A program made the position numbers and the translations under genes. Shown in pieces: positions 372 through 35,833 of a stretch of 36,278 nt of DNA. Numbering within the stretch: the stretch's first letter is position 1; every line of letters starts with the position of its first letter. The notes under the pieces were generated by a model. That model was given only the letters and a program-made list of their open reading frames with translations. It was not told the origin of the DNA and did no database searches. Where the stretch lies: the NCBI RefSeq assembly GCF_011806385.1, contig NZ_JAATOX010000028.1, positions 1 to 36,278 of the forward strand. The letters are read 5' to 3'. This stretch comes from Phaeobacter sp. HF9A. Its GTDB lineage: Bacteria; Pseudomonadota; Alphaproteobacteria; Rhodobacterales; Rhodobacteraceae.

Positions 372-1466
372 TCAGACCGAGAGACCATCCGAGACGTAGA
401 AACGGATGGCCACCAGGATATGGTAGAAGGTCGAGGCAGGCATATTCTCTGACAGGAGCACCCCTGCGGTGGAGCGTTTGTCGTACCAGCCCCCCATCAC
501 GGGGGTGTCGAGATATTGGTCCCACATCAGGGTCAGCACCGCCTCGGGAAGTGGCCCTCCTGCCGGGGTCTCGCCACGCCGTGCCATGGCGATCACCGCT
601 TTTAAAAGTTCGGTCTGTGGCCACATCCGGCGGGTCTCTGCCGCTGGATCGGAGCGGTCCGGCAGCAGGCCGCTGGCATCGCGACGCGCCAGCACCGCGT
701 CATAAAGTGTCTTCATCGGCACATCGGCGTTGCGCCCAGTGGCCACCTCGTAGCGATCAATAAGATAGACCCACTCCGCCATATGCCCCGGTTCTACGGC
801 CTGGTCGGCTTCATCAAGCGGGCTCCAATCCTCGGCAAAATACTCCAGAACCCGGCCATCCTCGGCGAGAAAAACCTCGCGGAACAGGCTCAGGCTTTCC
901 TCCGCCATGTCACGAAAGCGGGTTTCGCCGGTTGCGGCAAACAGCGCGGTGGAGGTCTCGAACATATGCATATGCGGGTTTTGGCGGCGCGGCAGATCGT
1001 GAGCCGCATTCTCGTACCAGCCCCGCGGAGCTTTCAGCTTGGCTAACTCCTCCTCAAGCCGGGCCAGATCCGCAGCGACATCCGCGCCCGTGGCGATCAA
1101 CGCCGAGGCCGCCAGCAGCATGAAGGCCACATCATAGAGATCATGCGGCGCAGTCAGGATTGAGGTGTCGGGTGCCAGCCGCGCGGCCAGATTGCCACTT
1201 TCTGCATCAAAGCCGTGATCCATGGCAAAGCGGAACAGTTGCAACGCCAGCGCCCGATGCGCTGGATCTTCAGACTTGGCAAAACAATAGGCTTGACGGA
1301 CCTGCACCCGCAGGCGGCGTTGCATATCAGCGCAAGGGGCGCCACTATGATCAAGGGCCTCCCAGGCGGTGCCAGTGGCTTGATCCAGTCCCGCCCCGCT
1401 CCACAGCGGCAGCGCCTCTTGCCGCAGCCAGACCGGCAGCAGAGCTTTAAAATCCGTGGTTGTCAT
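372..1466 (-). CDS. AGE-family (N-acylglucosamine 2-epimerase-like) epimerase/isomerase
   Basis: This 364-aa protein has the alpha/alpha-barrel signature of the AGE superfamily. The active-site-type segments are RVQVRQAYCF near residue 55, NPHMHMFET near 165, EPGHMAEWVYLI near 225, RMWPQTELLKA near 285 and MPASTFYH near 345, with conserved His and Glu residues. Members interconvert N-acetylglucosamine and N-acetylmannosamine, or mannose/glucose/fructose, or are phosphomannose isomerase-like. Motifs alone do not fix the substrate. Next to a CMP-sialate synthetase, ManNAc supply is attractive but inferred. ATG 1466 overlaps the upstream stop (TGATG), implying translational coupling, with an AAGGAGAGG Shine-Dalgarno just upstream; a TTG one codon earlier is possible. 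It is the third gene of the leftward neuA operon and ends before the bidirectional terminator. Confidence 0.75.
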   Translation of the reverse strand: MTTTDFKALLPVWLRQEALPLWSGAGLDQATGTAWEALDHSGAPCADMQRRLRVQVRQAYCFAKSEDPAHRALALQLFRFAMDHGFDAESGNLAARLAPDTSILTAPHDLYDVAFMLLAASALIATGADVAADLARLEEELAKLKAPRGWYENAAHDLPRRQNPHMHMFETSTALFAATGETRFRDMAEESLSLFREVFLAEDGRVLEYFAEDWSPLDEADQAVEPGHMAEWVYLIDRYEVATGRNADVPMKTLYDAVLARRDASGLLPDRSDPAAETRRMWPQTELLKAVIAMARRGETPAGGPLPEAVLTLMWDQYLDTPVMGGWYDKRSTAGVLLSENMPASTFYHILVAIRFYVSDGLSV

Positions 1467-2272
1467 CAAAATAATATCCTCTCCTTAAGTCCCCGTAACG
1501 CTGCGCTGCCCCGCCGCAGAACTTTCAGCGCTCTGATCGGATAAGGTCCGGCCCAGCTGGCCCAGTCGGTGGGCGGGTCAACGCGGGGCTGCTCCAGCCC
1601 TGCCCCGCCGCGATCAGGGGCCGGATCGCTCACGTCGCGCAACAGTGGGCTGTCGCCTAGACGTAACAGCTGCAAATCTCCGCGGGTCTGCAACATCTGC
1701 AAAATCGCGTGATCCAGATCCAGATCGTGCAAGTGGGCATCCAGACCGCGCCGCCCCAGATCCTGCCCCATCAGGTCCCGGTAATGCGGGCCCGGCGAAA
1801 ACGGATAGCGCTGATGGGTGCCGTAAAAATCCATCCCCGGCAGGAGGATCTGTTCCGCTCCCATGCCATGCGCCATCAATACCGCATAGATCCCGGTGGT
1901 CGGGTGGCGCCCGTGTCTGACAATCAACTGCCGCACCGCCTGTTCGACCATCTTGTCCCGATACCGCATGGGTTGAAAACTCTGGGCAAACCGTCGTCGC
2001 CCCGCCCGAATCACCTGCGGATTATGGCTGCTCCATCCTCTGAGATCATAGTCGTTGCGGCAGCGATACAGGGTTTCAAACATGAAAGGCGCAACCCTAG
2101 GATCACCGCCCATAAAAGCAAGATCCACCCGACGCCCTAGATAGAAACGCGGTTCAAAAAAGAAATTGTTAGTCCGGATGATGAAATCATCCGCCAGGAT
2201 AGCCCCGTGCGGCAACCGCGCCAGAGAGGCCCCGTTGCCAGCCACGACTACCGGGCGATCACGGAACGGCAC
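1466..2272 (-). CDS. GT42-like (CST-I family) sialyltransferase
   Basis: This 268-aa protein resembles Campylobacter CstI/CstII. It has an N-terminal nucleotide-binding motif VVVAGNGASL (residues 8-17), the acceptor/CMP segment RTNNFFFEPRFYLGRRVD (33-50), and PTTGIYAVLMAHGMG (124-138) followed by ILLPGMDFYG (142-151). His182 in LHDLDLDHAIL aligns by eye with the catalytic His of CstII (GHSKNTDIKAL). The family transfers sialic or related nonulosonic acids from CMP donors to galactose-type acceptors. The only usable start is GTG 2272, four bases after the CMP-sialate synthetase stop, so donor synthesis and transfer are coupled. The C-terminal 65 residues are rich in Pro, Arg and Trp and lack recognised motifs. 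DUF115/Maf-like nonulosonate transferases share the GNG-S motif and are the alternative. Confidence 0.72.
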   Translation of the reverse strand: MPFRDRPVVVAGNGASLARLPHGAILADDFIIRTNNFFFEPRFYLGRRVDLAFMGGDPRVAPFMFETLYRCRNDYDLRGWSSHNPQVIRAGRRRFAQSFQPMRYRDKMVEQAVRQLIVRHGRHPTTGIYAVLMAHGMGAEQILLPGMDFYGTHQRYPFSPGPHYRDLMGQDLGRRGLDAHLHDLDLDHAILQMLQTRGDLQLLRLGDSPLLRDVSDPAPDRGGAGLEQPRVDPPTDWASWAGPYPIRALKVLRRGSAALRGLKERILF

Positions 2273-2276
2273 GTTC

Positions 2277-3479
2277 TCAGCCTATCGCAGCAGAGGCCAT
2301 CAGGACATCCGACATTGATCGTAGCGCCCCCTGTCCCCCCGGTAGCGGCAGAATCCAGTCGGCTACCCCTAGGATAGAGGGATGCGAATCCGACGGGCAC
2401 GCCGATAGGCCCGCTCGCTCTATCGCACCCCGGTCGTTGACGTCATTGCCCACATAAAGGAGGTCATCCCAGCCGAGATCGCGTTCGGCCAGCCAGCGTT
2501 CCAGCGCCGCCACTTTGTCGTCGACGCTGTGCTGCACCTCAAGCTTCAGCTTTTCGGCCCGTTTCAGCACCACAGGATTGCGCTCCTTGGACAAGATCAT
2601 CATCTTGTAGCGACCGCTTTCACGCAGGGCTGCAATGCCCATGCCATCGCCGCGTGATGTGCGCACGCTTTCGATCCCGTTCTGGTCGGTGATCACCAGA
2701 TTGTCGGTATGCACCCCGTCGAAATCCATCACGATAGCCTTGACTCTGGCCAGCCGCCCTGGCGCAATCTCGCTGTGTCCGCCAGCTTGGGCGATCTGAG
2801 AACACAGGGCGAAATCCTGCAAGGTATCGATCTCGATCGGCGGGTGATCGACGGGATAGAGCGCCACCGATCCGCAGAACCGCTGGCCCGTGGTAAGGAA
2901 GGACGCCAGCTGCACACAGTAGATAGCGCCGCTTTCACAATATTGCGGCGGCAGATCCTGACGGCGTTTGCGCTGTTCGCGTTCGTTGTGGTTGAGTCCA
3001 ACCCCTCGGCCATCGGCGTCGAGCCCCCAGAGGAAGGAGTGATCCTCGGTGACCGACAGGGCGCAATCGGTTCCCCTAGCCTCCATCTCCGCCAGGCAGC
3101 CGTCGATATCGGCACCGGTGATGAAGGGGGAGGTACACTGCAGGAACACCAACTTGTCGAGACCGGGCAGATCGTCACGCACCAGCGGAACCGCGTGCAG
3201 CCAGCCAGCCTCGGAGCTGGCGGTATCGCCCGACAGCTCTGCTGGGCGGTCGATAATGCGGGCTCCATACAACGCAGCCTCGGCCGCAATGTCGGCGTCA
3301 TCGGTGGAAACATAGACCGCCGCGACACCGGTAGCTGCGCGGCCTGCGCGCACGGCACGGCCAATCAGCGAAACCCCACCTACCGGGCGCAAATTCTTGC
3401 CCGGAACCCCTTTGGAACCGCCTCGCGCCAGTATGATACAGGCTGTATTGGCCGATGTGACGAGGGGGCGTTCAGACAT
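2277..3479 (-). CDS. neuA: CMP-sialate (acylneuraminate) cytidylyltransferase fused to a KdsC-like HAD phosphatase
   Basis: The 400-aa protein has two domains. Residues 12-230 form a cytidylyltransferase: the P-loop-like LARGGSKGVPGKN (17-29), STDD (58-61) and QCTSPF (114-119) are hallmark CMP-NeuAc synthetase motifs. It activates a nonulosonic acid with CTP. Residues 246-400 form a HAD phosphatase: MDFDGVHTD (251-259, nucleophile D252, acid D254), S297, K322 and the GNDVND motif (344-349) are all present, so it looks catalytically intact. The same domain order occurs in animal CMAS and some bacteria, where the HAD part resembles KdsC or Neu5Ac-9-P phosphatase. It leads the leftward operon neuA - GT42 - AGE. 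No NeuB or NeuC lies in the window, so the exact acid (Neu5Ac, Leg, Pse, Kdn) is unknown. Confidence 0.87.
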   Translation of the reverse strand: MSERPLVTSANTACIILARGGSKGVPGKNLRPVGGVSLIGRAVRAGRAATGVAAVYVSTDDADIAAEAALYGARIIDRPAELSGDTASSEAGWLHAVPLVRDDLPGLDKLVFLQCTSPFITGADIDGCLAEMEARGTDCALSVTEDHSFLWGLDADGRGVGLNHNEREQRKRRQDLPPQYCESGAIYCVQLASFLTTGQRFCGSVALYPVDHPPIEIDTLQDFALCSQIAQAGGHSEIAPGRLARVKAIVMDFDGVHTDNLVITDQNGIESVRTSRGDGMGIAALRESGRYKMMILSKERNPVVLKRAEKLKLEVQHSVDDKVAALERWLAERDLGWDDLLYVGNDVNDRGAIERAGLSACPSDSHPSILGVADWILPLPGGQGALRSMSDVLMASAAIG

Positions 3480-3633: not shown

Positions 3634-3840
3634 ATGATCGCAATACTCAAGAAAACAACATTTGGGAAAATGCTGTATCGCCTGTCTCGCACCGCTCTCG
3701 GCCGGCCACTGGTTTGGTTTGCAGCCCTGTTGCAACACGAGGCGATACAGCCCGCGCATTTAATCCCTGCGCACCGTCGTCACAACCAACAGCAGCTCGA
3801 CATCCTGTCGCGTTTCGAAGCCCGCACCGGAAAGTCCTGA
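3634..3840 (+). CDS. Small basic hypothetical protein (68 aa)
   Basis: The frame encodes 68 residues, strongly basic at the N-terminus (MIAILKKTTFGKMLYRLSR), with a short hydrophobic patch (LVWFAALL) and a His/Gln-rich C-terminal half (PAHRRHNQQQLD). I do not recognise a family. Support for a real gene is its position. Its TGA overlaps the ATG of the next gene (TGATG at 3838-3842), the arrangement of translationally coupled pairs, and a weak GGCGGA precedes the start. It may be a membrane-associated partner of the downstream putative glycosyltransferase. It also carries inverted copies of the 10-mer TGTATCGCCT found upstream of parA (see findings). Coding status is plausible, not proven. Confidence 0.5.
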   Translation: MIAILKKTTFGKMLYRLSRTALGRPLVWFAALLQHEAIQPAHLIPAHRRHNQQQLDILSRFEARTGKS

Positions 3841-4994
3841 TGGCGCAAGACTCTCTGCCCCAGCCGGCCTGTTCCTGTGACATTTCGGCGCCCCTGCCCT
3901 TCAGCGAACGCCCTGTCCTGCTGCTATTCAGCGACGATTCAACGCTGTTCTTTGCACTGCGGATGCGTGATTGCCTACGTGACGCCGATCCCGATCTGAA
4001 GATCGAGATGGGTTGGGTGGTGGCGGAAAATGCGCTCTCCTACCGACAGATGGCACAACTGTTGCCGGAGGGACCGGATCTAGCCCTGCACGGCAAGACC
4101 GCCTTCGAGAAGCTATTCGGTGCTTGCAGCCACAAGGCGGTTCTGACCAGCCGTGTCTATGCTCCGCTGGGAGCTCAGCTGCGGCGCACGATCATGCATG
4201 TCAGTGCCGAACGGCCTTGCGTGATCGCGTTTCTCGGCGGGTTGGATTTTTTCCCCCAGGACGGCTACTTCCGACGCCGAAACTGTGATGGGGTGTTTCT
4301 CTTTCCGCAATCGGAGCTGGCCACCTTCGAGGAGCAGGCAAAAAACTGGCCGGACCGGATGTGGCAGGAGGTCGGCTTCGGCCATCCCGCCTTCGTCACG
4401 CCGGAGCAGCTTACCCCAGAGGAACTGGCCGGACGCAAGGACATCTATTTCTTTACCCAGGCGCTGTCGCCCTCCACCCGCCGGGGTCGCATGCACATGC
4501 TGAAGGCAATGGCGGCCATGGCTCGTGCCAATCCTGACCACACGATCTGGATCAAGCTGCGTCACCTGCCGGACGAAAATCGACAGCACCTGCATCTCGA
4601 AAAGCACGACTACCCGGCGCTGCTGGCAGATCTGCCAGCAGCGCCAGTAAACCTGAAACTCACCGCCTGCACGATGGACGAGGCCCTGGAAACCGCAGCG
4701 CTTGGTATCACCTGCACCTCTACTGCCGCCATTGACGTCGTGCGCGCCGGGATCCCATGTATGGTACATCTTGATTTTGTCGACACCTATCTCGACCCAC
4801 TGGTCGCTCCGATGCGTAAGCTATTTAAGTCCAGCGGCCTGATTACTTCGCTCGAGGATATGCTGCATATGCGCGCTCAGGCCCCAAACCCCTCTTGGAT
4901 CGAGGATATGTTCTGCCCTCGCGACCTGGGCGAGCGCGCGCTGCGTATGGTGGAACTGTTTCAGCACAGACCGTTTCAAGTCCTGTCCTTTTAA
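3840..4994 (+). CDS. DUF6716-like putative glycosyltransferase
   Basis: From ATG 3840 this is a 384-aa protein. It has alternating beta strand/helix character: PVLLLFSDDSTLFFALRMRDCL near residues 25-46, CVIAFLGGLDFFP near 126-138, KDIYFFTQALSP near 200-211, and a donor-site-like C-terminal part with LGITCTSTAAIDVVRAGIPC near 295-315. This resembles GT-B folds and the DUF6716 family, which I recall as a neighbour of acylneuraminate cytidylyltransferases. The acceptor and donor are unknown. ATG 3840 was chosen because it overlaps the upstream TGA; longer readings start inside the 68-aa gene. The divergent neuA operon suggests a role in nonulosonate-containing glycan assembly. Confidence 0.6.
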   Translation: MAQDSLPQPACSCDISAPLPFSERPVLLLFSDDSTLFFALRMRDCLRDADPDLKIEMGWVVAENALSYRQMAQLLPEGPDLALHGKTAFEKLFGACSHKAVLTSRVYAPLGAQLRRTIMHVSAERPCVIAFLGGLDFFPQDGYFRRRNCDGVFLFPQSELATFEEQAKNWPDRMWQEVGFGHPAFVTPEQLTPEELAGRKDIYFFTQALSPSTRRGRMHMLKAMAAMARANPDHTIWIKLRHLPDENRQHLHLEKHDYPALLADLPAAPVNLKLTACTMDEALETAALGITCTSTAAIDVVRAGIPCMVHLDFVDTYLDPLVAPMRKLFKSSGLITSLEDMLHMRAQAPNPSWIEDMFCPRDLGERALRMVELFQHRPFQVLSF

Positions 4995-6550: not shown

Positions 6551-7357
6551 TTAGGCCATGCCCATCCGGCTAAGGTAGCCTTCGATCAGCGCCACATCAG
6601 AGGGGTTGTTCAATTCCCAGAAGGCGGCGCCGGGTTCCGAGACCTCGATGGTGCTGACCGGATGACCGTTTTCCAGAAAACGCAGCTGCTCCAGCCCCTC
6701 CAGGGTTTCCAGAGTGCCCTGCGGCCAGCCCATATAGGCGGCCAGCGCCGACTGGCGGTAGGCATAAAGCCCGACATGGTGGAACACCGGAACCACCCCG
6801 TTCACAGAGCTTTTTCCATCGGTGAAGGGCAGCACCTCCTTGGAGAAGTAAAGCGCCTGGCCCAATTGGTTGGAAACCACCGTGGTGGCCCCGACCCGTC
6901 CGGCGCGGCGATCCGCGAGGAAGTTGCTCAGCGCTTCCTCGTCGCAGCGCAGCACCGGCGTGGCCACCTGCATGTCTGGTGTCTGTTGCATGGCAGCGAT
7001 CAGACTGCGCACAAAAGACGGCGGCGTCAGCGGCGCATCCCCTTGCAGGTTGATGATAATATCGCTGGTGATGCCGGCATTCTTCACCGCCTCGGCGACC
7101 CGCTCGGTGCCATTGCGGCAGCTTTCCGAGGTCATGATGACCCCGGCGTTGATGCGTTCGGCCTCGGCGGCGATGCGCGCATCATCGGTGGCCACATAGA
7201 TCGCAACCTCCGTTCCGACAGCGGCACGGGCCGCGGTGACCGAGCGCTCCAGCAGGCTTTTGGACTGGCCGGTGGCGCCGCGCAGATGCACCAGCGGCTT
7301 GCCCGGATAGCGGGTCGAGGCATAGCGGGCGGGGACAATGATGGAAACGTCACTCAT
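6551..7357 (-). CDS. kdsB: 3-deoxy-manno-octulosonate cytidylyltransferase (CMP-Kdo synthetase)
   Basis: This 268-aa protein has the CMP-Kdo synthetase fingerprint: IIVPARYASTRYPGKPL (residues 6-22), ATDD (56-59), SCRNGTER (78-85) and LQGDAPLTPP (about 104-113). It couples Kdo to CMP in the cytoplasm for lipopolysaccharide or capsule linker synthesis. The usual GDEP motif reads GDAP here, a variation worth noting. It is the last gene of the leftward operon, 24 bases after kdsD, so Kdo precursor formation and activation are encoded together. Lipid A biosynthesis normally has chromosomal copies; a second pair on a polysaccharide plasmid suggests use in an exported glycan. Confidence 0.9.
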   Translation of the reverse strand: MSDVSIIVPARYASTRYPGKPLVHLRGATGQSKSLLERSVTAARAAVGTEVAIYVATDDARIAAEAERINAGVIMTSESCRNGTERVAEAVKNAGITSDIIINLQGDAPLTPPSFVRSLIAAMQQTPDMQVATPVLRCDEEALSNFLADRRAGRVGATTVVSNQLGQALYFSKEVLPFTDGKSSVNGVVPVFHHVGLYAYRQSALAAYMGWPQGTLETLEGLEQLRFLENGHPVSTIEVSEPGAAFWELNNPSDVALIEGYLSRMGMA

Positions 7358-7381
7358 GGGAGAACCTCTTTGCTCCGATGT

Positions 7382-8353
7382 TCAGGCGATGCCTGCCCGC
7401 AGGCAGTCGTGAATATGCAAAAGCCCCACCACGTGATCGTCTTGATCCAGCACAAACAGCGAGGAAATCTTGCGGCTGTTCATCTCATGCAGGGCTTCGG
7501 AAGCCAAGGCACCACTGCGGATGACCTGGGGATCGCGGGTGGCGACGGCACCGGCGGTCTTTTCCATCAGCCCCGTCATGTTGCGACGCAAGTCGCCATC
7601 GGTGATGATGCCGGCAAGGCGGTCCTCCTCGATCAGGCCGGCAACGCCAAAGCCCTTGGCGGTCATGGTCAGCAGCGCCTCCGCCATCGGGGTGTCGGGC
7701 AGCACCAGCGGCAGCGCCTCGCCCGCATGCATCAGCGCATCCACCAGCATCAACTGCGCGCCCAGCTTGCCGCCGGGATGAAAGACCTGGAAATCCTCAC
7801 GCTGAAAGCCACGCCGCGCCATCAGGGCCACGGCCAGCGCATCACCGATCGCCAATGTCGCGGTGGTCGATGTGGTCGGCGCGACCCCGATGCCGCAGGC
7901 CTCCGGCGCATCGGGCAACAACAGCGTCACATCGGCCTGCTGCGCCAGCGTGCTCTCGGCGACGCGGGTGATGGCGATCAGCGGAATGCCAAAGCGGCGG
8001 CTGTAGGTGATGATATCGGCCAGCTCGCGGGTCTCGCCGGAATTGGAAATCACCAGGCAGACATCCCGCGCGGTCACCATGCCCAGATCACCGTGGCTCG
8101 CCTCGGTGGCATGGACAAATTGCGCCGGCGTGCCGGTCGAGGCGAGCGTGGCCGCGATCTTGTTGCCGATATGGCCGGACTTGCCGACGCCGGAGACAAT
8201 GACACGACCCTGCATCGCCTCCAGAATGCGCACCGCCTCCAGATGCGGCGCGCCCAGGGCCTCGGCCATCTGCTGCAAGGCGCTGGCCTCGGTGGTCAGC
8301 ACCCGGGACATTTCGCCCAGGGTATCGGCAGAGGTCATCTTGGCGGGTATCAT
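7382..8353 (-). CDS. kdsD: D-arabinose-5-phosphate isomerase (KpsF/GutQ family)
   Basis: From ATG 8353 (GGAG upstream) this gives 323 residues, the usual size for KdsD/KpsF. An N-terminal SIS domain shows GVGKSGHIGNKIAATLAST near residue 52 and ATEASHGDLGMV near 78, with SNSGET further on. Two C-terminal CBS domains follow from about residue 195 (GVAGLIEEDRLAGIITDGDLRR and ISSLFVLDQDDHVVGLLHIHDCLR). The enzyme converts ribulose-5-phosphate to arabinose-5-phosphate, the first committed step to Kdo. Position just before kdsB and inside a polysaccharide operon suggests a capsule-type KpsF role. Longer upstream readings are not supported. Confidence 0.9.
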   Translation of the reverse strand: MIPAKMTSADTLGEMSRVLTTEASALQQMAEALGAPHLEAVRILEAMQGRVIVSGVGKSGHIGNKIAATLASTGTPAQFVHATEASHGDLGMVTARDVCLVISNSGETRELADIITYSRRFGIPLIAITRVAESTLAQQADVTLLLPDAPEACGIGVAPTTSTTATLAIGDALAVALMARRGFQREDFQVFHPGGKLGAQLMLVDALMHAGEALPLVLPDTPMAEALLTMTAKGFGVAGLIEEDRLAGIITDGDLRRNMTGLMEKTAGAVATRDPQVIRSGALASEALHEMNSRKISSLFVLDQDDHVVGLLHIHDCLRAGIA

Positions 8354-8442
8354 GTTTGGATATCTCCAGGCCCTAGGATATGATCTGGTCTGTGTAGTCG
8401 GTGCCACGACGAAAGGCCAGTAAAGGTCAGGCCTGTGCCACC

Positions 8443-9687
8443 TCAGAACATGATCGGCGCGACAGTGTTTGCGAGGCCGTTGATCCGCGAAACATGTTCC
8501 GGCAGGCAATGGGTCAGGAAATCATAATGCGCCACCACATGTGCCCGGGCGTTGGGGCCCAGATGCGCATAATTTTCCGGGCGCGCCAGCACGTCACAGA
8601 CCTGCGCCGCCAGCGCCGAGGGCTCAAAAAAATCCACCAGAAGGCCGGTTTCATCATGGCTGATCGCCTCGCGCACCGGCGCCACATCGGCGGCAACGAT
8701 CGTCGCCTGCATCGCCATGCTCTCCAGCAAGGACCAGCTTAGCACAAAGGGCATGGTCAGATAGATATGGCAGCGCGAAATCTGGATGATCTTGCAGAGC
8801 TGTTCATAGGGCACCCGGCCGACGAAATGCACCCGGCTCCAATCGACGCGATCGCCCAGCTCCTCTTCCATCTCGCCGCGCAGGCCACCGGGGTGTTTGC
8901 TCTCGGCGCCGTAAGAGGTCTCATTGCCGCCGATCATCAGGATGCGGGCGTTGGGGCGCGCGGCCTGGATCTCCGGCAGGGCGCGCATCATGATGTGAAA
9001 GCCACGCGCGCGTTCCATATTGCGGGCGACATAGGTCACCACCTCATCGCCCCGGGTCAGGGGCCGGTCCAGCCGGCCCAGACGCACCTGCGCCTCCGGG
9101 TTGGCGCTCAGCCGATCAGTGCGGATACCGTCGTGACAGACATACATCTTGTCATGAAAACTCGCCGGGAAGCGATCCCGCTGCCAGAGTGTCGGCACAT
9201 GACCCAGATCCACCACATCGCGGTTGAGACAGGGCACCACATTGCGCGCCCGGTTGAAATAGGGCGCATGCTCCCCCGGCGGGCGTTCGGGATCAAAGCC
9301 CACCATGCCGCCACTCATGGAATAATAATATTCAAAGAAGCCCAGGATCGGCACATCCGGCCAGAGATCCTTGAAAAAACTGAGCTCCCCCCAGCCGGTA
9401 TGCCCCAGGATGATATCGGGGCGAAAGCCGGTCTCGGCGGAAAACTTCTGTGCCGTCTGCACCGCGCCAAACCCGACCCCCACCGCCGCCTCCCAATCCT
9501 TGGACAGACCAAAGGCGTCGCGCGCGGGGCGGTGAAACGGCTTATAGACCAAGGTGCGCACGCCGGGGATCTTGATATCCCCGCGCTGGCTCAGGAACAC
9601 CAGCTCATGGCCGCCCTGCGCCGCCAGCCATTGCACCAGCTCGCGATACTGGCCGGGCATGTTCTGATGCACAAACAGGAGTTTCAT
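8443..9687 (-). CDS. GT4-family glycosyltransferase
   Basis: The 414-aa protein has an N-terminal acceptor domain starting MKLLFVHQNMPGQYREL and containing DIILGHTGWGE near residue 92. A C-terminal Rossmann donor domain follows: VTYVARNMERARGFHIMMRALPE near 220-242, FVGRVPYEQL near 290-300, and the retaining GT4 signature LSWSLLESMA near 325-334. Retaining GT4 enzymes use activated nucleotide sugars in the cytoplasm. Here the adjacent rml genes make dTDP-rhamnose, so a rhamnosyl or Kdo-linked acceptor step is possible but inferred. ATG 9687 follows AAGGGGTGG, eleven bases downstream of the rmlA stop, so it is co-transcribed. Confidence 0.85.
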   Translation of the reverse strand: MKLLFVHQNMPGQYRELVQWLAAQGGHELVFLSQRGDIKIPGVRTLVYKPFHRPARDAFGLSKDWEAAVGVGFGAVQTAQKFSAETGFRPDIILGHTGWGELSFFKDLWPDVPILGFFEYYYSMSGGMVGFDPERPPGEHAPYFNRARNVVPCLNRDVVDLGHVPTLWQRDRFPASFHDKMYVCHDGIRTDRLSANPEAQVRLGRLDRPLTRGDEVVTYVARNMERARGFHIMMRALPEIQAARPNARILMIGGNETSYGAESKHPGGLRGEMEEELGDRVDWSRVHFVGRVPYEQLCKIIQISRCHIYLTMPFVLSWSLLESMAMQATIVAADVAPVREAISHDETGLLVDFFEPSALAAQVCDVLARPENYAHLGPNARAHVVAHYDFLTHCLPEHVSRINGLANTVAPIMF

Positions 9688-28854: not shown

Positions 28855-29152
28855 GTCAACATTTCTGAGAGCAGCCAGCGCCGCGACATGACGCGCAAGA
28901 TCACTGCGGGAATGCAGGATATCAACGATGATGACCTCGTCAGGCTGATCCAGGAACGCAGGAAATGCTCCCCTGCCCTCGCGAACCGCACAGCTTCTGC
29001 TATGCGCCTGACTGTTCAGGATTGCCTGCAGCGGGCGAGCAGTTCCGCTTCATAAAGGTCTGCCTGTTTGAGCCCGAATTGCTCGATCGCCATTTGGGAA
29101 TCTCGACCAGACTGGCCTCTGCGCGCCGGGTCAGCCGAAGGGATCGGCTCAT
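28849..29152 (-). pseudogene. parE: ParE/RelE-family toxin, inactivated by frameshifts
   Basis: ATG 29152 overlaps the parD stop (ATGA) and the frame starts MSRSLRLTRRAEASLVEI, a normal ParE start. Near 29092 one base is missing, so AIEQFGLKQADLYEAELLARC continues in another frame. A second shift near 29031 moves to a third frame, ending FLDQPDEVIIVDILHSRSD and LARHVAALAALRNVDL at TAG 28849. Some middle residues also seem lost. Uninterrupted translation gives only about 46 nonsense-ended residues. The gyrase-targeting toxin is therefore dead. Confidence 0.8.
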
Positions 29153-29406
29153 GAAGATGTGCGCGCTTGCCGAAATGCCCGCCGGATCGCGTCGTCACGG
29201 CTACCTTCGGCGAATTCGCCCGCCTTTGCCTGCGCCAATCCCTCGAACAACCCCTGCCGAATACCGGTGAGTCGGGCTTCTTCCTGCTCCAACAGCCGAA
29301 GCCCCGCGCGCATCGCCTCGCTGACGTTCTGATAACGTCCGGAGGCAACCAAAGCCTGAACCAGCTGGTCTTGGGTTTCGGTCAGAACGACATTGCGTGT
29401 CACCAT
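29149..29406 (-). CDS. parD: ParD-type antitoxin (type II toxin-antitoxin)
   Basis: ATG 29406, with AAGGAGAG upstream, gives 85 aa. A ribbon-helix-helix start (VTRNVVLTETQDQLVQALVASGRYQNVSEAMRAGLRLLEQEEARL) is followed by a toxin-binding tail (GLFEGLAQAKAGEFAEGSRDDAIRRAF). It normally binds ParE and its own operator. The gene is intact, but its toxin partner is frameshifted, so it is an orphan antitoxin that might still neutralise a related ParE. The longer frame reading up to 29637 runs through the resolvase gene and is not real. Confidence 0.88.
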   Translation of the reverse strand: MVTRNVVLTETQDQLVQALVASGRYQNVSEAMRAGLRLLEQEEARLTGIRQGLFEGLAQAKAGEFAEGSRDDAIRRAFRQARTSS

Positions 29407-29422
29407 GGAACAACTCTCCTTG

Positions 29423-29439
29423 TTGGCAATATATGCCAA
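29423..29439 (-). promoter_or_regulatory. Palindromic operator candidate upstream of parD
   Basis: TTGGCA-ATATA-TGCCAA is a symmetric site 16 bases upstream of the parD ATG. It covers a TATATT-like -10 on the minus strand and ends next to the AAGGAG ribosome site. Autoregulation by the ParD ribbon-helix-helix protein is the natural reading. Beyond it, to 29532, lies the AT-rich space before the resolvase, which may hold its res site. Confidence 0.55.
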
Positions 29440-29532
29440 TGCGAGGGTTCGCTCAATGTCACGGAGGCTTGTATCACCGTTTCCAAAGGGTCGTTTATTG
29501 ATGATACATAAAATTGCAAACGGCCCGTTTTC

Positions 29533-30006
29533 ATGCCCCTGATAGGCTATGCGCGCGTATCGACAGAGGATCAGACCCCCCTGCCCCAGTGTGAGGCCCT
29601 GCAAACTGCGGGATGCGTCGAGATCTTTGAAGAGCACGCCTCAGGCGGCAATCGCGCGCGGCCGGTGCTGGCACGCGTGCTCGAACGCGTCCAGAGCGGC
29701 GATACACTGGTCGTTGTGCGGATCGACCGGCTTGCACGGTCTCTGTCCCACCTACTGGAACGTCTGGAGGCCAAGGGAGCTTTCTTCCGCTCCCTTCAGG
29801 ACCCCATCGACACCGCTTCCCCGCAGGGCAAGTTCACATTGCAGGTTCTGAGCGCCGCGGCCGAGTTCGAGCGCGCGCTAATACGTGAGCGCGCAAAGGC
29901 CGGGCTTGCCTCTGGGGCAGCCATGCTTGCGCGTTTGTCGGGCAAACAGTTCCCCGGACTGTTTGCTGACCCTCCTCACTCCATTCCCCTTCGCCTTCGG
30001 ATTTGA
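29533..30006 (+). pseudogene. Serine recombinase (resolvase/invertase family), 3' truncated
   Basis: The frame starts MPLIGYARVSTEDQT with the catalytic Ser in the YARVST motif (residue 10). It continues through GDTLVVVRIDRLARSLSHLLERLEAKG, SPQGKFTLQVLSAAAEFERALIRERAKAGLAS (to about residue 128), the full catalytic domain and E helix. After that the sequence departs from the family and runs into antisense IS5/IS903-group DNA, so the C-terminal helix-turn-helix DNA-binding domain is missing. A functional resolvase is unlikely. Its promoter side faces the parD region. Confidence 0.82.
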
Positions 30007-30479
30007 TGCCCGTGCTGTCGATGAGCAGGTGCAGAGGGCCGGTGGCTCCGCGATACGGCAGGCTCACGTTCAGTGTCTGTTGACGGCGGCAAAGGGTGCT
30101 GAAATCGGGCACCGCCCAGGCCAACCCAACCAACTGCAACAGGCTTTCGACGAAACCCGCGGTTTGCCGCTGCGGCAAGCCAAATAGCACTTTTAGCGTC
30201 AGACAGGTCTGGATGGCCGCGTCGCTGAATTCTTGCTGTCGCCCACGCTTGCCCGTTGGCGGCGGCGTCCAGGTCATCTCCAGATCAAACAAAATCGACA
30301 GCGATCCGCGTTGCTTCAGCGCATTCGCCATTGTGCTCGAACCAATGGCGCATCAATGGCTCATTGTACGAAGGCCAGTTCCTGGTCTTTTACTTCGTAG
30401 GGGCCCAAATGCCCATGTCGCCCAGCTATCATACTGGATTCAAAAAGTAAATCCCTAAAGCGATTTATGCGACAAAGCC
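29970..30479 (-). mobile_element. IS5-family (IS903-group) element, 3' truncated, transposase disrupted
   Basis: GGCTTTGTCGCATAAATCG (30479-30461, minus strand) is an IS903-like terminal repeat. The transposase then begins near 30411 (MGIWAPTK) but meets a TAA after eight codons. It resumes as KTRNWPSYNE and shifts frame around a small duplication. Then it continues from 30331 as MANALKQRGSLSILFDLEM, SDAAIQTCLTLKVLFGLPQ, AWAVPDFSTLCRRQQTLNV and HLLIDSTGIKSEGEGEW, including the first catalytic Asp. It stops matching near 29975, where it meets the resolvase. The element is dead. Confidence 0.8.
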
Positions 30480-30540
30480 TCAACGACCTGCTGACTTGGA
30501 ATTACGCCAAACACGTGTGACCGGCGCTCCGCTTACGATA

Positions 30541-30727
30541 GAGGCCGATCACGGCAAGCTCAAGCAGCTGATCAAGCCGGTGCGTGGCTTCAAGACGATG
30601 AGGACGGCCTACGCCACAATCAAGGATTTCGAGGTGATGCGCGCCCTGCGAAAAGGCCAAGGCCGGGCCATGTATCATGACCGAGGCAATGACGCTGATC
30701 GCAGAGCATTTCAAAGCCGCGGCATAA
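30541..30727 (+). pseudogene. IS6-family transposase C-terminal remnant
   Basis: From 30541 the frame reads EADHGKLKQLIKPVRGFKTM then RTAYATIKDFEVMRALRKGQ, the catalytic-Glu region and following helix of an IS6 transposase. Then it breaks: the normal last residues (MTEAMTLIAEHFKAAA, stop TAA 30725-30727) are found in another frame. A deletion of several dozen bases removed the piece between. No terminal repeat was found on either side. Confidence 0.75.
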
Positions 30728-30793
30728 GTAGGTCCAATGCAGGGATAACTGCGTCCTGTGATAAAGTTTTCAACAGAGCCTTCAAGCGGCTTC

Positions 30794-31483
30794 TCAGGTG
30801 GTTTTGACCGTATCCAACGCTCCCCGTGCCGCAGCGGATTGTTGCGCTCGGTTCCAAAGCTGCGCATCGATGTCGAATAGCTCTTCCAGAATGCCGCATT
30901 CCATTTCGGACAGATCGGCACGCATTACGGTCTTGGACGACTTGTTGCGGTCGAGCGAGGGGGCGAGCGGCTGGCCCGTGAGCCGCCTATAGGCATCATC
31001 CAGTTCCGACAGCGTATAAAGTGTCACGCCGAAGCGGTGAAGGAAAGCCTCGGCAGCCTCCCAATTGCGCTCGCCAGAGAGGTAGTAACATTGAAAATTT
31101 GGCGACCAAATGGGAATCCGATGGGAAAGCGCCATGAATTGCCAAAAAGTCAGCTCCTTCACGCGGTCATAGTTCTGAGTGTGGGTGGCGGTGATGGCGA
31201 AGTTATACATCGATAGTGCCGCCGATATCGGTTCGCGGCAGACAGCGATGTATTCGGCCTCGATATTCGTCAGCATCCGCTCGTATGGAAAGCGGGCGTT
31301 GTGCACGGTGATGACGTCGATGTCGCGGAACCCCGTGGCCGCGTGGCGCTGAAGCGTGGGCCAGTCGCTGCGGTTGACGTATTGAAAAAAGCGTGGCCCC
31401 AGATGCGCGTTCAGATTGGCATCCACCGTGGTGCCGCCGCATTTGGGCAGGTGGATATAGACCTTCAGGGGGGTGGTGCGCAT
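30794..31483 (-). CDS. Sulfotransferase-family protein (PAPS-dependent)
   Basis: The 229-aa protein starts MRTTPLKVYIHLPKCGGTTV, where PKCGGTT (13-19) is the 5'-phosphosulfate-binding loop of sulfotransferases. AVCREPISAALSMYN (80-94), with Arg83 and Ser87, is the 3'-phosphate site. Size and motifs match the carbohydrate-type Sulfotransfer families. It would move sulfate from PAPS to a hydroxyl of a glycan or small molecule; the acceptor is unknown. It begins 21 bases after the GT42/GT4 fusion gene on the same strand, so a joint role in making a sulfated sugar is likely but inferred. It is intact, although IS6 debris lies just beyond its 3' end. Confidence 0.82.
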   Translation of the reverse strand: MRTTPLKVYIHLPKCGGTTVDANLNAHLGPRFFQYVNRSDWPTLQRHAATGFRDIDVITVHNARFPYERMLTNIEAEYIAVCREPISAALSMYNFAITATHTQNYDRVKELTFWQFMALSHRIPIWSPNFQCYYLSGERNWEAAEAFLHRFGVTLYTLSELDDAYRRLTGQPLAPSLDRNKSSKTVMRADLSEMECGILEELFDIDAQLWNRAQQSAAARGALDTVKTT

Positions 31484-31504
31484 GCGTGACTCCTATGGGT
31501 TTTG

Positions 31505-33880
31505 TTATTCCGCGGCCTTCTGGGGGCCAAGCTGTGCTTCGATCTTTTCCAGGATGCGCTGCGCGCTGGCGGACTCTGGATTGCTTTGAGTGGCCTCGAT
31601 AGCAAAGGCATGGGCGGTGTCCAACCGGCCGGTGTTGAAGAAATGGATCGCCGCCTCGCGCCGGGCGGATGCCTTTTCGGGGTTGTTCTCGACCGAGGCC
31701 AAGATGGCCTTATCGGCCAGCGTCTGTTCGCCCATCTCGACAAGCTGCCGAGCCACGCGGGCATAGACCACCGTGTCCTCGGGGCGGTCGATCAGGCGCT
31801 GGCAGGCGGTCAGCACCTGATCCCAGCTTTGCCGCGGGGCCGCCCCGCGCAGCCGGTCGACCACCGTGCGGGTGCGCGATTTCAAAAGCTTCAGCCCGCG
31901 TGTGGCCTCTGGGCTTTCGGCGGCCTCAAACTCTGACTCCGAACGCATGCCGTCGATGGCGTCTTTCAGGCGCCGGGCGAAGACCTCTGTGTCGAAACGG
32001 TCGCGCAGCACCGCGTCGACCCGGTCGAAATCCAGCGGCGTGTTCAGCGCCTGTTCCAGCGCGGCCAGCGCTGCCTCTGGGGTGTAGTCGTCAAAGACCG
32101 CGCAGCCGGGGATGTCGCGCACCCATTCGGCGGTGCCGATGCCCGCATAGCACACCAGCTTGACCCCGCGCGACGCGGCTTCCAGCGCGGCCAAGGGCTG
32201 AGGGTCATCGCGCGAGGGGATGAACATCACATCCAGATCGGCGATGAATTCCTGCGCCTCTGCCGGGGGCTTGGCGCCGTGAAAGGTGATGGCGTCGCGG
32301 TCAACTAGGCCCTCGCTTTGCTTGCCCACCCATTCAAACGACATCTTGGTCCCGCCGACCATGCGTGCCACCTGGGTGAACAGTTCCGTGCCCTTGCGCG
32401 ACTGATAAGACCCCACCATCCCGATGCACAGGCTGCGGCCTGGGTCGCGATCAGACCGGGCGATGCGGTTCATCCGCCGCGCCTCTGGCGGTAGGATCGT
32501 GTCGACGGTGTTATAGACCAGCTCGGTGGCCTTGGGCGCGAACGCCTTTTGCACATAGGCCTCTTGCGCGGGCGACACGCACATGACCGTGGCGCGGCTG
32601 ACGCAATTAAGAAACCGGTAATAGCCCAAGGGCTGCTTTTGGCGGTAGCCTTCCATCGTCCATTCTGTTTCGTGCAGGTAGATGGCGATCTCGTCGGCCT
32701 CGTCGATCAGCCGCTGCACGCGCGTGTCCGAAAAGCTGGCGATGCTGTTCAGCACCAGCCGAAAGGGCCCCGCGGTGACGTGGTCGATGGTCATGCGCAC
32801 GCGGCGGCGGTCGCGGTCGGATAGGTTGATGACCTTGGGGCGCAGGTGCAGCTTTTGGTTGGACACGTCCAGATAGGTCTGCAGCGGGCGATAGACCCCG
32901 GCGAACGATTGCATCTCGTGCACCACCCAGACCACGTCGGAATGGGGCAGACCGTCCAGGCTGATCAGATCAAAGAGCCGGTTCATCCGCTCGATGTCCA
33001 GCTTTTGATCCTTAAAGCCCGCAAGCTTGGCCTCCAGCGCCTTGATCTGTACCTGCATGCGGCCCAGCGTGGCGCCGACCTCGACACTGATGGCGAGCGC
33101 GGCGGGGTCAGAGGCGTCGGCCGTGACCGCCGGCACAGACACAGGTGAAGGCGCTTGGCCTTCAGGCAGCGCGTTGATGGCGAACTTTCGTGCCAGCCGC
33201 TTGCCTTTGACCATGTCGTCAAGGTCGCGGAAATGGGTGTGGTTGACAATCTCAAAGTCCGGGAATTCCTTTATGATCGTCTGCAGGAACTCCAGATCGG
33301 CCTCAAGCGAATGCGCGCCTGCCTCATAGCCCGGGGTGGTGTGCGTGTCGCCCAAGGTGCGCGCCAGATCTTCGGGGATGGTAAAGGCATAGCGGCTGTC
33401 GGCGCTTTGATAGAAATCCAAGCCAAAGAGATAGGCGCGCTTGACCCCCATCACCGCGAAGGTGGCCAGGGCCTGCACCCCCAGCGTGGGCAGGGGGCGG
33501 CTCATCATGCGGCGTCCCAGCGGGTCGCATTGGCCGATCACGCGCCAGTGGTCGAATAGCTTGTCGTCGGGAAAGAAGGGATCGTCTTTCACCTTGCCGT
33601 GGTCGTAATCCATCCGGTCGATGGGCACCGACGAATAAAAGGCGTCAAAGGCATAGCGCCCGCTGTCGACGGTGCTGCGCAGGGTTTCGTGCAGCGCTTG
33701 GCGGTTAACCGCCCAGAAATAGCTGTCGACCGCGCGGCCATAGGGCAGACCCTCTTCCAGCATGAAGAAGTTCATCCGCGCCACATGCGCCGGTTCCTTG
33801 ATATCCTGGAAAGCCATCGCGTTGTCTTTTGACGACGGCCCGTTTCCAACAATAACAACCGCTTGGTTTTTGAAAATCAT
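31505..33880 (-). CDS. Fusion glycosyltransferase: GT42-like domain, coiled coil, GT4 domain, TPR-like tail
   Basis: From ATG 33880 (GAGGA seven bases upstream) the product is 791 aa. Residues 6-215 look like a CST-I/GT42 sialyltransferase: VVIVGNGPSS (8-17), RMNFFMLEEG (35-44), PTLGVQALATFAVMGVKRAYLFGLDFY (131-157) and His190 in GAHSLEADLEFL aligning by eye with the CstII catalytic His. Residues 265-300 form a coiled-coil-like linker. Residues 311-645 are a GT4-type GT-B domain: VVWVVHEM (316-323), IGMVGSYQSRKGTELF (486-501), and DDPQPLAALEAASRGV (558-573). Residues 690-785 are TPR-like helical pairs. It may add two different sugars in one protein. The sulfotransferase gene follows in the operon. 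DUF115/Maf-like is the alternative for the first domain. No signal peptide or membrane span is seen. Confidence 0.75.
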   Translation of the reverse strand: MIFKNQAVVIVGNGPSSKDNAMAFQDIKEPAHVARMNFFMLEEGLPYGRAVDSYFWAVNRQALHETLRSTVDSGRYAFDAFYSSVPIDRMDYDHGKVKDDPFFPDDKLFDHWRVIGQCDPLGRRMMSRPLPTLGVQALATFAVMGVKRAYLFGLDFYQSADSRYAFTIPEDLARTLGDTHTTPGYEAGAHSLEADLEFLQTIIKEFPDFEIVNHTHFRDLDDMVKGKRLARKFAINALPEGQAPSPVSVPAVTADASDPAALAISVEVGATLGRMQVQIKALEAKLAGFKDQKLDIERMNRLFDLISLDGLPHSDVVWVVHEMQSFAGVYRPLQTYLDVSNQKLHLRPKVINLSDRDRRRVRMTIDHVTAGPFRLVLNSIASFSDTRVQRLIDEADEIAIYLHETEWTMEGYRQKQPLGYYRFLNCVSRATVMCVSPAQEAYVQKAFAPKATELVYNTVDTILPPEARRMNRIARSDRDPGRSLCIGMVGSYQSRKGTELFTQVARMVGGTKMSFEWVGKQSEGLVDRDAITFHGAKPPAEAQEFIADLDVMFIPSRDDPQPLAALEAASRGVKLVCYAGIGTAEWVRDIPGCAVFDDYTPEAALAALEQALNTPLDFDRVDAVLRDRFDTEVFARRLKDAIDGMRSESEFEAAESPEATRGLKLLKSRTRTVVDRLRGAAPRQSWDQVLTACQRLIDRPEDTVVYARVARQLVEMGEQTLADKAILASVENNPEKASARREAAIHFFNTGRLDTAHAFAIEATQSNPESASAQRILEKIEAQLGPQKAAE

Positions 33881-34050: not shown

Positions 34051-34116
34051 GAACAGGTGAGTTAGGTGGATTTTCCGCTCCCAATCCGGCAGTTTTGCCG
34101 GGAAGAAGGAGCGACG

Positions 34117-34428
34117 ATGACAAGACGGCCGAGACGGAACCATAGCCCCGCTTTCAAGGCAAAAGTCGCGCTGGCGGCTTTGAAGGGCGACAGAACGATG
34201 AGCGAGCTGGCGACACAGTTCGATGTGCATCCGAACCAGATCAAGCAATGGAAGGATCAGCTCCTCGACGGCGTGACGGATGTCTTTGACGACAAACCCA
34301 AGGCGTCGAAGGAGCCTGAGATCGACGTCAAATTCCTTCATGCAAAGATCGGCCAGCTGACGCTGGAGAATGATTTTTTAGAGGGAGCGCTCGACAAGGT
34401 CGGTCTGTTGCCGAGCGCAAAGAAATGA
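34117..34428 (+). CDS. IS3-family transposase OrfA
   Basis: ATG 34117 with AAGGAG six bases upstream gives 103 aa. RRPRRNHSPAFKAKVALAALKGDRTMSELATQFDVHPNQIKQWKDQLLDG (about 3-52) is the helix-turn-helix start. A leucine-zipper-like EIDVKFLHAKIGQLTLENDFLEGALDKVGLL follows. OrfA binds the IS ends and forms a frameshift fusion with OrfB. Its stop overlaps the OrfB ATG (ATGA at 34425). The gene is intact, but OrfB is cut, so this copy cannot transpose by itself. Confidence 0.87.
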   Translation: MTRRPRRNHSPAFKAKVALAALKGDRTMSELATQFDVHPNQIKQWKDQLLDGVTDVFDDKPKASKEPEIDVKFLHAKIGQLTLENDFLEGALDKVGLLPSAKK

Positions 34429-34640
34429 CAAATCGCAACCACGCCCTGAGCCTGAGCCGCCAAGCCGATCTGCTCGGGATCAGCCGGGGCAGGCTGTGTT
34501 ACGAGCCGCACCCCACCTGTGAAAATGATCTCAAACTGATGCGCCGGATTGATGAGCTGCACATGGAGTATCCGTTTGCGGGCAGCCGGATGATGAAAGG
34601 TCTTCTGCGTCAGGAGGGCTTCACTGCTGGACGATTGCGT
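34425..34640 (+). pseudogene. IS3-family transposase OrfB, 5' part only
   Basis: The frame reads NHALSLSRQADLLGISRGRL, CENDLKLMRRIDELHMEYPF and SRMMKGLLRQEGFTAGRLRV, the N-terminal region of IS3 OrfB. Near 34640 it changes abruptly to unrelated sequence and stops at 34677-34679. The rve catalytic domain is missing entirely. Confidence 0.82.
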
Positions 34641-34649
34641 GTGGCCATC

Positions 34650-34895
34650 CTTCGAGCGGAATGTGCAGCCGTAGTCTGACGGCTCCAGCCCAAAATGAGG
34701 TGCGAGAACCTCAAACATGGCCTTGTCCGGGGAATAGATCGCGCCGTACTCCTGCGGGATGCCGACGCGGAAGCTGATCGCAAAACTGTGGCGCAGGTCG
34801 ATATCCGCGAGATCGCCCCCTTCGACTGTCAGTCCGTGCGTCTCTGCCACGGCGAGGCATGCCTTCATCATATCCCGGCGAAGCCGATCGCAAAG
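34650..34895 (-). pseudogene. Internal fragment of a conserved plasmid-type hypothetical gene
   Basis: The minus strand reads DMMKACLAVAETHGLTVEGG, DLADIDLRHSFAISFRVGIP, EYGAIYSPDKAMFEVLAPHF and GLEPSDYGCTFRSKDG without start or end. This resembles an uncharacterised protein I associate with alphaproteobacterial mobile elements; function is unknown. It is cut on one side by the IS3 remnant and on the other by an IS6 remnant, so both ends are lost. Confidence 0.55.
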
Positions 34896-34904
34896 CTCTG
34901 GGGT

Positions 34905-35200
34905 CAGGTTCCGTCCCAGATCATCGTTCATGTCGTCTGGCTCTACGCCCGGTTCAACTTGAGCCTGCGCGAGGTTGAAGAGCTGATGCTGGAACGTGGC
35001 GTGGACGTTTCGTACGAGACGATCCGGCGCTGGACGGTGAAGTTTGGTCCACTGATTGCTCACACCTTAAGGCGTCGGCAGCCGCGTCCCGGCGATGTCT
35101 GGCATCTGGAACGAAGTCGTCGGGAAGATCGCGGGCCGGTCATTCTGGCTGTGTCGGGCTGTCGATCAACACGGCGTCGTTCTTGAAGAAATTCGAGGCT
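34905..35200 (+). pseudogene. IS6-family transposase N-terminal remnant, frameshifted
   Basis: The plus strand reads PSQIIVHVVWLYARFNLSLR, EVEELMLERGVDVSYETIRR and WTVKFGPLIAHTLRRRQPRP, then GDVWHL, the helix-turn-helix and start of the DDE domain of IS6 transposases. After HLE an extra base shifts the frame; EVVGKIAGRSFWLCRAVDQH then GVVLEEI continues in the other frame. At about 35198 it joins the truncated VirD4 gene. It cannot be functional. Confidence 0.78.
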
Positions 35201-35833
35201 GTCCGGTGGCAGCCGGTCGAGGGGATTGTAGCAAGCCGAAGGATGGCCGCTGACTTCAAACGGATCGAGGACATGAACCGTCCCGAAGCGCCGCCGGGCC
35301 TCGCCCGCGATCCGGGCATTCTCGCCCTTGGGGTCGATGACCAGCACCAAGCGTTCCGCCGCCAGCAGGTTCGGGATCACGGTGCCGACGCCTTTCCCGG
35401 CCCGTGTCGGGGCGAGCGTGATCAGATGGGCCGGACCGTCATAGTGCAGCAACCGCCCGGTGTGCGGATTGCGCCCGATCAAAAGTCCGTCTTCGCGTTG
35501 GAGCTTTTTCAGCTCCTTGCGGTTCGCAAACCGGGCCGAGCCGTGGCTGTCACCGGTCAGCCCGAAATAGGCACCGGCCCCGGAGGCCATGCGCCAGTAC
35601 TGGAACCCGAAGACAGCACCCACGAACATGAAGGGACCGAAGACCAGCCACTGCCAGGCGCTTTCGCCCGGCGTCTGGTCGAAGAAGGCAAAGATGAATG
35701 GCGTGGCCACCAAAGAGCCGGGCATCGCCCCAAAGGCCATCGCTCCGATCAACCATCCGAGCAGTATAGGCGTGAAGATCAACCGACCGAAAAAGCGGAA
35801 CAGCCCCCCAAAAACGAGCATCACACTCCGCAT
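35199..35833 (-). pseudogene. VirD4/TraG type IV secretion coupling protein, 3' truncated
   Basis: The minus strand encodes about 211 residues of VirD4/TraG. Two N-terminal membrane segments are visible (LFRFFGRLIFTPILLGWLIG and FGPFMFVGAVFGFQYW). They are followed by SHGSARFANRKELKKL, the Walker A region LAPTRAGKGVGTVIPNLL (about 138-155), LVLVIDPKGENA (Walker-B-like) and HVLDPFEVSG, ending CYNPLDRLPPDS at an IS6 remnant. The C-terminal two-thirds of the ATPase are gone. Intact VirD4 brings the relaxosome to the mating channel, so conjugation from this copy is lost. Start codon choice (35833 or four codons later) is uncertain. Confidence 0.83.

Follow-up and report, generated by a model that had tools for sequence, protein, structure and literature searches.

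A GT42-GT4 fusion protein of Phaeobacter sp. HF9A and its predicted role in building a nonulosonic-acid polysaccharide

We analysed the 36,278-nucleotide contig NZ_JAATOX010000028.1 of Phaeobacter sp. HF9A (hereafter, the window), which carries a gene for a 791-amino-acid (aa) protein that joins a GT42 sialyltransferase-type domain to a GT4-type glycosyltransferase domain and a TPR-like tail. Judged from its sequence, this protein truly combines a GT42 with a GT4 domain and belongs to a nonulosonic-acid polysaccharide locus. The role that we tentatively predict for it is that of a bifunctional chain-elongating glycosyltransferase of the capsule-polymerase type. The gene forms a pair with a sulfotransferase-like gene:

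31505..33880, minus strand: GT42-GT4-TPR fusion, 791 aa (Pfam, AF2 model, Foldseek, orthologue)
30794..31483, minus strand: sulfotransferase-like gene, 229 aa, starting 21 bases past the fusion (Pfam below cut-off, Zongyanglinia orthologue)

Domain make-up of the fusion protein

Both transferase domains exceeded their Pfam cut-offs. The CST-I/GT42 profile (PF06002) scored 28.7 bits over residues 7-206 (cut-off 25), Glyco_trans_1_4 (PF13692) scored 39.4 bits over residues 486-613 (cut-off 27), and PF00534 reached 36.4 bits (cut-off 26.4). A TPR match of 11.9 bits stayed below the Pfam cut-off, and the TPR-like tail was recognised from the structural model. The layout comprises GT42 at about 5-215, a long helix at 259-292, GT4 at about 315-645 and the tail at about 683-784. 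Among PDB sequences, CstII was the phmmer match of the fusion (E = 3.9e-6), and a profile built from four relatives matched CstII with E = 1.9e-15. The AlphaFold2 model, made from 16 rows, had a mean predicted local distance difference test (pLDDT) value of 74.6. Up to residue 220, its blocks were mostly at pLDDT 79-95 (two blocks at 69 and 72), residues 701-780 formed a confident helical-pair tail (90-96), and the GT4 part was mixed (32-94). In a Foldseek search with the model, ranks 1-7 were all CstII chains (1ro8_A, E = 4.6e-9, TM score by target 0.67), followed by GT4 enzymes such as MshA (3c4q_A, E = 6.0e-8). These results bear out the initial annotation, which had described GT42, GT4 and TPR-like parts in a single chain and had proposed a GT42 profile search of the N-terminal part and a comparison of its predicted structure with CstII. 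A reading of the fusion as DUF115/MptE (PF01973) was rejected: this profile had 0 matches in the genome of strain HF9A and matched relatives only weakly (20.4 bits against a cut-off of 34.6; 4 of 21 GT8-type relatives, described below, at E <= 0.001).

A nearly whole-chain orthologue (residues 5-784, 45% identity) was found in another genus, in Zongyanglinia huanghaiensis; the fusion is therefore not a chance product. Full-length GT42-GT4 fusions occurred in 2 of 394 genomes of the family (strain HF9A and Zongyanglinia), and beyond strain HF9A itself in none of 385 genomes of the class and none of 18 of the genus. Close relatives of the 229-aa protein were present in strain HF9A and Zongyanglinia alone among the 394 genomes, so the count of genomes with both fusion and neighbour, which the initial annotation had suggested, gave the same two for each; matches to the 229-aa protein in 14 other family genomes were weak (26-39%) and mostly partial. 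PF06002 itself was found in 6 of 292 genomes of the order. In a plasmid collection of 72,556 records, none of the three matched records covered 80% of the fusion; two Ensifer plasmid records were near copies, and one was used. A single-protein scan of a genome-contig collection found nothing but missed Zongyanglinia, later found there, and a viral-contig scan with the C-terminal part of the fusion also found nothing; absence is unproven in both cases.

Catalytic and acceptor residues of the GT42 domain

We aligned 16 GT42 domains, namely those of the fusion, its orthologue, 12 GT8-type proteins and two stand-alone GT42 proteins. The equivalents of CstII N9, N31, Y156, Y162 and H188 were identical in 16 of 16 rows; of these, we take the residues other than the histidine to serve donor binding. 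His190 of the fusion, which the initial annotation had judged by eye to be conserved, corresponds to CstII His188 and was indeed invariant. The equivalents of N51 and R129 were changed in every row (to A, S or G and to L, N or H, respectively), with A57 and L130 in the fusion; the R129 position was aligned by profile and could shift. In CstII, His188 is the base, and Arg129, Asn51 and Tyr81 help to bind the sialylated acceptor (PMC4202792). Because the five residues are invariant and the N51 and R129 equivalents differ, the catalytic core has been kept and the acceptor site changed, where N51 and R129 are features of CstII and are not shown to define the GT42 family. The fusion thus resembles CstI/CstII-type enzymes over its N-terminal 210 or so residues, including the catalytic histidine and the other four equivalents, and differs from them in that they are stand-alone and possess N51 and R129. 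Arg163 of the fusion, beside Y164 (the Tyr162 equivalent), was conserved in every row of two overlapping sets (16 of 16 and 21 of 21); CstII has Ser at this position, and Arg163 may replace the lost Arg129.

The sulfotransferase-like neighbour

The orthologue of the 229-aa protein in Zongyanglinia is 53% identical and scored 20.4 bits against a cut-off of 22. K14, R83, P85 and S91 were invariant in four aligned rows that included the 229-aa protein and two annotated sulfotransferases; these residues may correspond to the PKxGGT-like loop and R..P..S pattern that are motifs for 3'-phosphoadenosine 5'-phosphosulfate (PAPS). No relatives of this protein were matched in the plasmid or viral-contig collections.

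A probably displaced centre of a nonulosonic-acid locus

In Zongyanglinia huanghaiensis, the fusion and the sulfotransferase-like gene lie on one 45-kb contig (G038:C15) and are flanked by nonulosonic-acid genes. The order begins with AGE, GT42, NeuA, DUF6716, a Sulfotransfer_3 gene (32.8 bits; cut-off 27) and the fusion. Past the fusion come a methyltransferase, the orthologue of the 229-aa protein, and relatives of the GT2, methyltransferase and second GT2-like genes of HF9A contig C47. Further along are NeuB (89% identical to that of strain HF9A) and KpsM-, KpsE- and KpsT-like genes, after which RepA/ParA/ParB follow with 74% DNA identity to the window. In strain HF9A, the corresponding genes are divided. 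Contig C47 carries GT2, methyltransferase, GT2-like, NeuB, KpsM, KpsE and KpsT genes, the KpsE gene matching a BexC/CtrB/KpsE profile below its cut-off, and the window carries:

372..1469, minus strand: AGE-type N-acylglucosamine 2-epimerase (PF07221, 162.4 bits)
1466..2272, minus strand: stand-alone GT42, 268 aa (PF06002, 38.7 bits)
2277..3479, minus strand: cytidine monophosphate (CMP)-nonulosonate synthetase with a KdsC/Kdn-9-P-phosphatase-like HAD domain (NeuA-HAD; Kdn, ketodeoxynononic acid; PF02348, 57.8 bits; NCBIfam below cut-off)
3714..4994, plus strand: DUF6716 putative glycosyltransferase (PF20471, 125.5 bits)

When the identity of the sugar was sought through NCBIfam, every match of NeuA-HAD, NeuB and AGE was below cut-off. 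By eye, the left end of C47 holds an IS66-like piece. The fusion pair itself lies between remains of insertion sequences:

29834..30331, minus strand: DDE transposase fragment (DDE_Tnp_1_5, PF13737), left flank
30496..30807, plus strand: truncated IS240/IS6-type transposase, C-terminal piece (PF13610 positions 97-139 of 139), left flank
34066..34679, plus strand: IS3-type orfA (34066-34428) and a short, apparently truncated orfB (34425-34679) (PF01527, PF13276), right flank

Broken insertion sequences on both sides, as first annotated, are therefore present. By eye, an N-terminal IS240/IS6-type transposase piece lies at about 34900-35160 on the same strand as the piece at 30496-30807; Pfam had no match in 34695-35186. 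The edge of this insertion-sequence region, at window positions 35060-35833, holds a piece of a VirD4/TraG-type conjugative transfer protein (PF02534).

The pair of fusion and sulfotransferase-like gene would appear to have been displaced from the centre of a nonulosonic-acid polysaccharide locus. The initial annotation had suggested that the pair arrived as cargo; we consider such a separate arrival less likely than displacement, the simpler reading, because most other genes of the locus are present in the same genome (window positions 372-4994 and C47).

GT42 with a second glycosyltransferase is a recurrent plan

A second scan of the genome-contig collection returned 18 loci: one of the GT4 type (Zongyanglinia), 16 in which GT42 is joined to GT8, and one stand-alone. 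Another scan of the viral contigs added three GT8-type loci, two of them near-identical, and GT42-GT8 fusions were also found on plasmids of Ensifer and S. meliloti. All 21 GT8-type proteins matched both PF06002 and PF01501 (GT8) at E <= 0.001, 8 of the 21 matched TPR_14, and the GT8 DxD motif and all five CstII-type residues were invariant throughout. Using tblastn (E 1e-10, flanks of 10 kb or less), we detected NeuA near 13 and NeuB near 12 of the 17 fusion loci of the genome-contig collection. Neither was found near the fusions of the three viral loci or Ensifer, and both were present in S. meliloti; over the 21 GT8-type loci, the counts were 13 for NeuA and 12 for NeuB.

In a midpoint-rooted tree of 25 rows, seven stand-alone GT42 proteins of Rhodobacterales were split from the other 18 with support of 100/100. 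The 18 comprise the full set of 17 fusions in the tree and a stand-alone gammaproteobacterial GT42 on a long branch (L065, 3.64); given the long-branch warning for this tree, only the split from the seven was used. The branch uniting the GT8 types without the GT4 types was weak (81/70). The GT42-GT8(-TPR) proteins of Promicromonosporaceae, Rhizobiaceae and others thus share with the fusion a two-transferase plan and the placement of the GT42 domain on one side of that split, and differ from it in having as second domain a GT8 with an invariant DxD instead of a GT4. The initial annotation had expected such a chain, with its sulfation partner, to be an unusual unit. By these sequence comparisons, GT42 with a second glycosyltransferase is a recurrent plan, and only the GT4 version is rare. 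In a literature search on titles and abstract openings, we recognised no description of a GT42-GT4 fusion or of GT42-GT8 proteins.

One GT8-type locus, with a GT42-GT8-TPR gene, belongs to Promicromonospora citrea ATCC 15908 (L057), which we assume to be the same type strain as 665T; a search for confirmation found nothing. Its neighbours are DUF6716 (395.9 bits), NeuB, NeuA-HAD and two PS_pyruv_trans proteins, one of them below cut-off. GT8 enzymes are retaining. A Kdn-teichulosonic acid with the repeat ->6)-alpha-Glc-(1->6)-alpha-Glc3SO3-(1->4)-alpha-7,9Pyr-Kdn-(2-> is given for P. citrea 665T in a review (PMC6801904). An inverting GT42 that forms alpha-Kdn from CMP-Kdn, together with a retaining GT8 that forms alpha-Glc from uridine diphosphate (UDP)-Glc, fits this polymer, which is circumstantial evidence. 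Streptomyces wall teichulosonic acid has been described as composed of Gal and Kdn (PMC11481543). Adjoining the P. citrea GT42-GT8 gene are pyruvyltransferase-like and KTGTT-motif proteins (L057:11924-16880). As sulfotransferases, the KTGTT proteins are weak candidates and no more than a lead (hhalign probability 0.3%, no relevant PDB match); elsewhere, the P. citrea genome has two Sulfotransfer_3 matches over cut-off.

Predicted function and alternatives

In the elongation reading, the GT42 domain would transfer a CMP-activated nonulosonic acid onto a hexose by inversion, with His190 as base, and the retaining GT4 domain would transfer a hexose from a nucleotide sugar onto the nonulosonic acid, such that a single chain is extended by the two sugars in turn. 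The TPR tail might dock partner enzymes, or the chain while it is primed or grows. The product would be sulfated by the sulfotransferase-like enzyme encoded alongside and presumably exported by the KpsM/KpsE/KpsT-like exporter encoded on C47. There are precedents for such a build. SiaD of N. meningitidis W/Y (GT4 + GT97) likewise combines a retaining GT4 hexosyltransferase with a CMP-sialic-acid transferase in one chain (PMC10361700), although its domain order is reversed, its sialyltransferase is GT97 and not GT42, and the fusion adds a TPR-like tail and a sulfotransferase-like neighbour. The TagF-like capsule polymerases Cps3D and Cps7D combine a TPR region with two transferases in a single polypeptide encoded in a group 2 capsule locus, and the TPR domain of CpsD polymerases is described as essential for linker elongation (PMC11666461); they differ from the fusion in transferase families and polymer chemistry. 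KpsC/KpsS-type Capsule_synth genes were present in 6 of 6 genomes examined, and for this reason we treat them as background and not as specific support.

Several observations weigh against this reading. Only two full-length GT4-type members were found, and the pTM of the fusion model (0.43) makes its domain packing unreliable. In both GT4-type members, the stretch at the EX7E motif of GT4 enzymes reads D559-x7-E567, with Asp559 in place of the first Glu and E567 kept, so that the domain is classed as GT4-like by profile and fold. In strain HF9A, the pair sits apart from its locus amid insertion-sequence remains, and neither the window nor C47 gave a match to the Sulfotransfer_3 gene or the first methyltransferase of Zongyanglinia. 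A single chain with two transferases, encoded within a capsule export locus, is what Zongyanglinia has; in strain HF9A, the parts are split between two contigs. The initial annotation had placed a PAPS-type sulfotransferase 21 bases on. The spacing and a sulfotransferase-like gene stand, and the profile does not: the 229-aa protein scored 17.4 bits with Sulfotransfer_2, below the Pfam cut-off of 22, its BLASTP matches to the two annotated sulfotransferases had E values of 0.012 and 2.7, a sequence search found no PDB relative, and its model was poor (mean pLDDT 40) and unfit for a fold search. As for P. citrea, its repeat has two glucoses per Kdn, for which one GT42-GT8 chain may not suffice, its local candidate sulfotransferases with the KTGTT motif are weak (2 of 7 at E 0.029, Pfam), and a Streptomyces teichulosonic-acid gene region has been published (PMC13011467).

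The initial annotation had seen a glycan-capping unit. The fusion could indeed be bifunctional and non-polymerising, with its nonulosonic acid and its hexose each added once to form a cap or side branch that is then sulfated: the stand-alone GT42, DUF6716 and the two GT2-like genes of the locus could make a backbone, and CstI and CstII add sialic acid to lipooligosaccharide (PMC4202792). We consider this rather unlikely. The locus holds capsule-type exporter genes, and the fusion is similar to capsule polymerases in its two domains and its TPR tail; elongation is preferred because of this exporter, the precedents of SiaD-W and the TPR-containing polymerases, and the polymer known from the species of a GT8-type cousin.

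It is less probable still that only the GT42 domain is active, with the GT4 half serving as a binding or scaffold module owing to its D-x7-E motif. Both members carry D559, and AceA activity is abolished by loss of the first Glu (cited in PMC10361700), but E567 is kept within long runs that are invariant between the two. K496 appears by eye to match the catalytic Lys of GT4 enzymes, and Asp may be able to replace Glu.

That the pair is a relic, displaced by insertion sequences and no longer usefully expressed, strikes us as very unlikely. It does lie apart from DUF6716 and NeuB with insertion-sequence remains on both sides; against this, both frames (791 and 229 aa, 21 bases in between) are intact, a purine-rich ribosome site precedes each start, and third-position GC (0.80 and 0.72) is within the range of 12 other window genes (0.67-0.83). 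Least probable of all is a protein glycosyltransferase whose TPR tail binds a secreted protein, such as one of the calcium-binding repeat proteins encoded on either side of the Zongyanglinia and C47 loci, in the manner of FlmG and flagellin. FlmG joins TPR and glycosyltransferase domains and binds flagellin through its TPR part, but its glycosyltransferase domain is of the GT-B type (PMC7591256) and not GT42, the neighbours of the fusion are polysaccharide synthesis and export genes, and loci that lack the fusion have such repeat proteins as well.

More speculative, and somewhat less probable than elongation by the fusion itself, is a phylum-spanning family of GT42-based two-domain polymerases that make alternating nonulosonic-acid/hexose chains with an exchangeable second transferase: GT8 for Rhizobiaceae capsules and actinobacterial wall polymers, GT4 in the fusion. 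It would include the enzyme for the sulfated, pyruvylated Kdn-teichulosonic acid of P. citrea. If so, GT42 enzymes, found in print only as stand-alone sialyltransferases, would also serve as polymerase halves in several phyla. Such a family would point to a backbone gene for Kdn wall polymers in Promicromonosporaceae and to a way of making sulfated nonulosonic-acid polymers enzymatically. Since the P. citrea polymer has a published structure, the polymerase reading can be tested directly through the link to this species.

Variable centre of related loci and remaining features of the window

AGE, GT42, NeuA and DUF6716 occurred all together in six fetched relatives (G038, which is Zongyanglinia, G180, G097, G090, G176 and Tritonibacter plasmid p4). 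In the five other than G038, the genes adjoining DUF6716 vary: GSCFA, a GT4 and a 748-aa protein in G180; a 1043-aa protein in G097; a pseudaminic-type dehydratase and aminotransferase in G090 and G176; and PseF near DUF6716 in Tritonibacter p4, with other pse genes further off. This variable centre suggests that the type of polymer has been exchanged while a common core was retained. Two further plasmids were left out of the six: that of Marinovum has NeuA, GT42 and AGE with a sulfotransferase-annotated gene nearby, and that of Pseudorhodobacter has like gene kinds in a different order. Near the AGE-GT42-NeuA-DUF6716 block, 994-1059-aa proteins are encoded at L044:3498-6629, L046:16511-19690 and L072:3409-6393. 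Those of G097, G176 and Tritonibacter are related, G097's through its C-terminal half. The L044 and L046 proteins had no Pfam match at E 0.001; these large proteins are possible polymerases.

A phage origin was rejected, as the phage collection gave no match. Plasmid matches came from Tritonibacter, Ruegeria, Leisingera and Phaeobacter, and the window also carries rml genes, mannose-1-phosphate guanylyltransferase, RepA, ParA and ParB (names partly by eye or from hit annotations). In its rml, RepA, ParA, ParB and polysaccharide genes, it resembles the rhamnose-operon 'biofilm plasmids' described for roseobacters; it differs in adding a nonulosonic-acid module and is known here as a contig only. 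Window positions 29149-29637 encode a ParD-type antitoxin domain (PF03693). At 6551-8509, KdsB- and KdsD/KpsF-like genes (named by eye), for supply of CMP-ketodeoxyoctonic acid (CMP-Kdo), adjoin the rhamnose operon.

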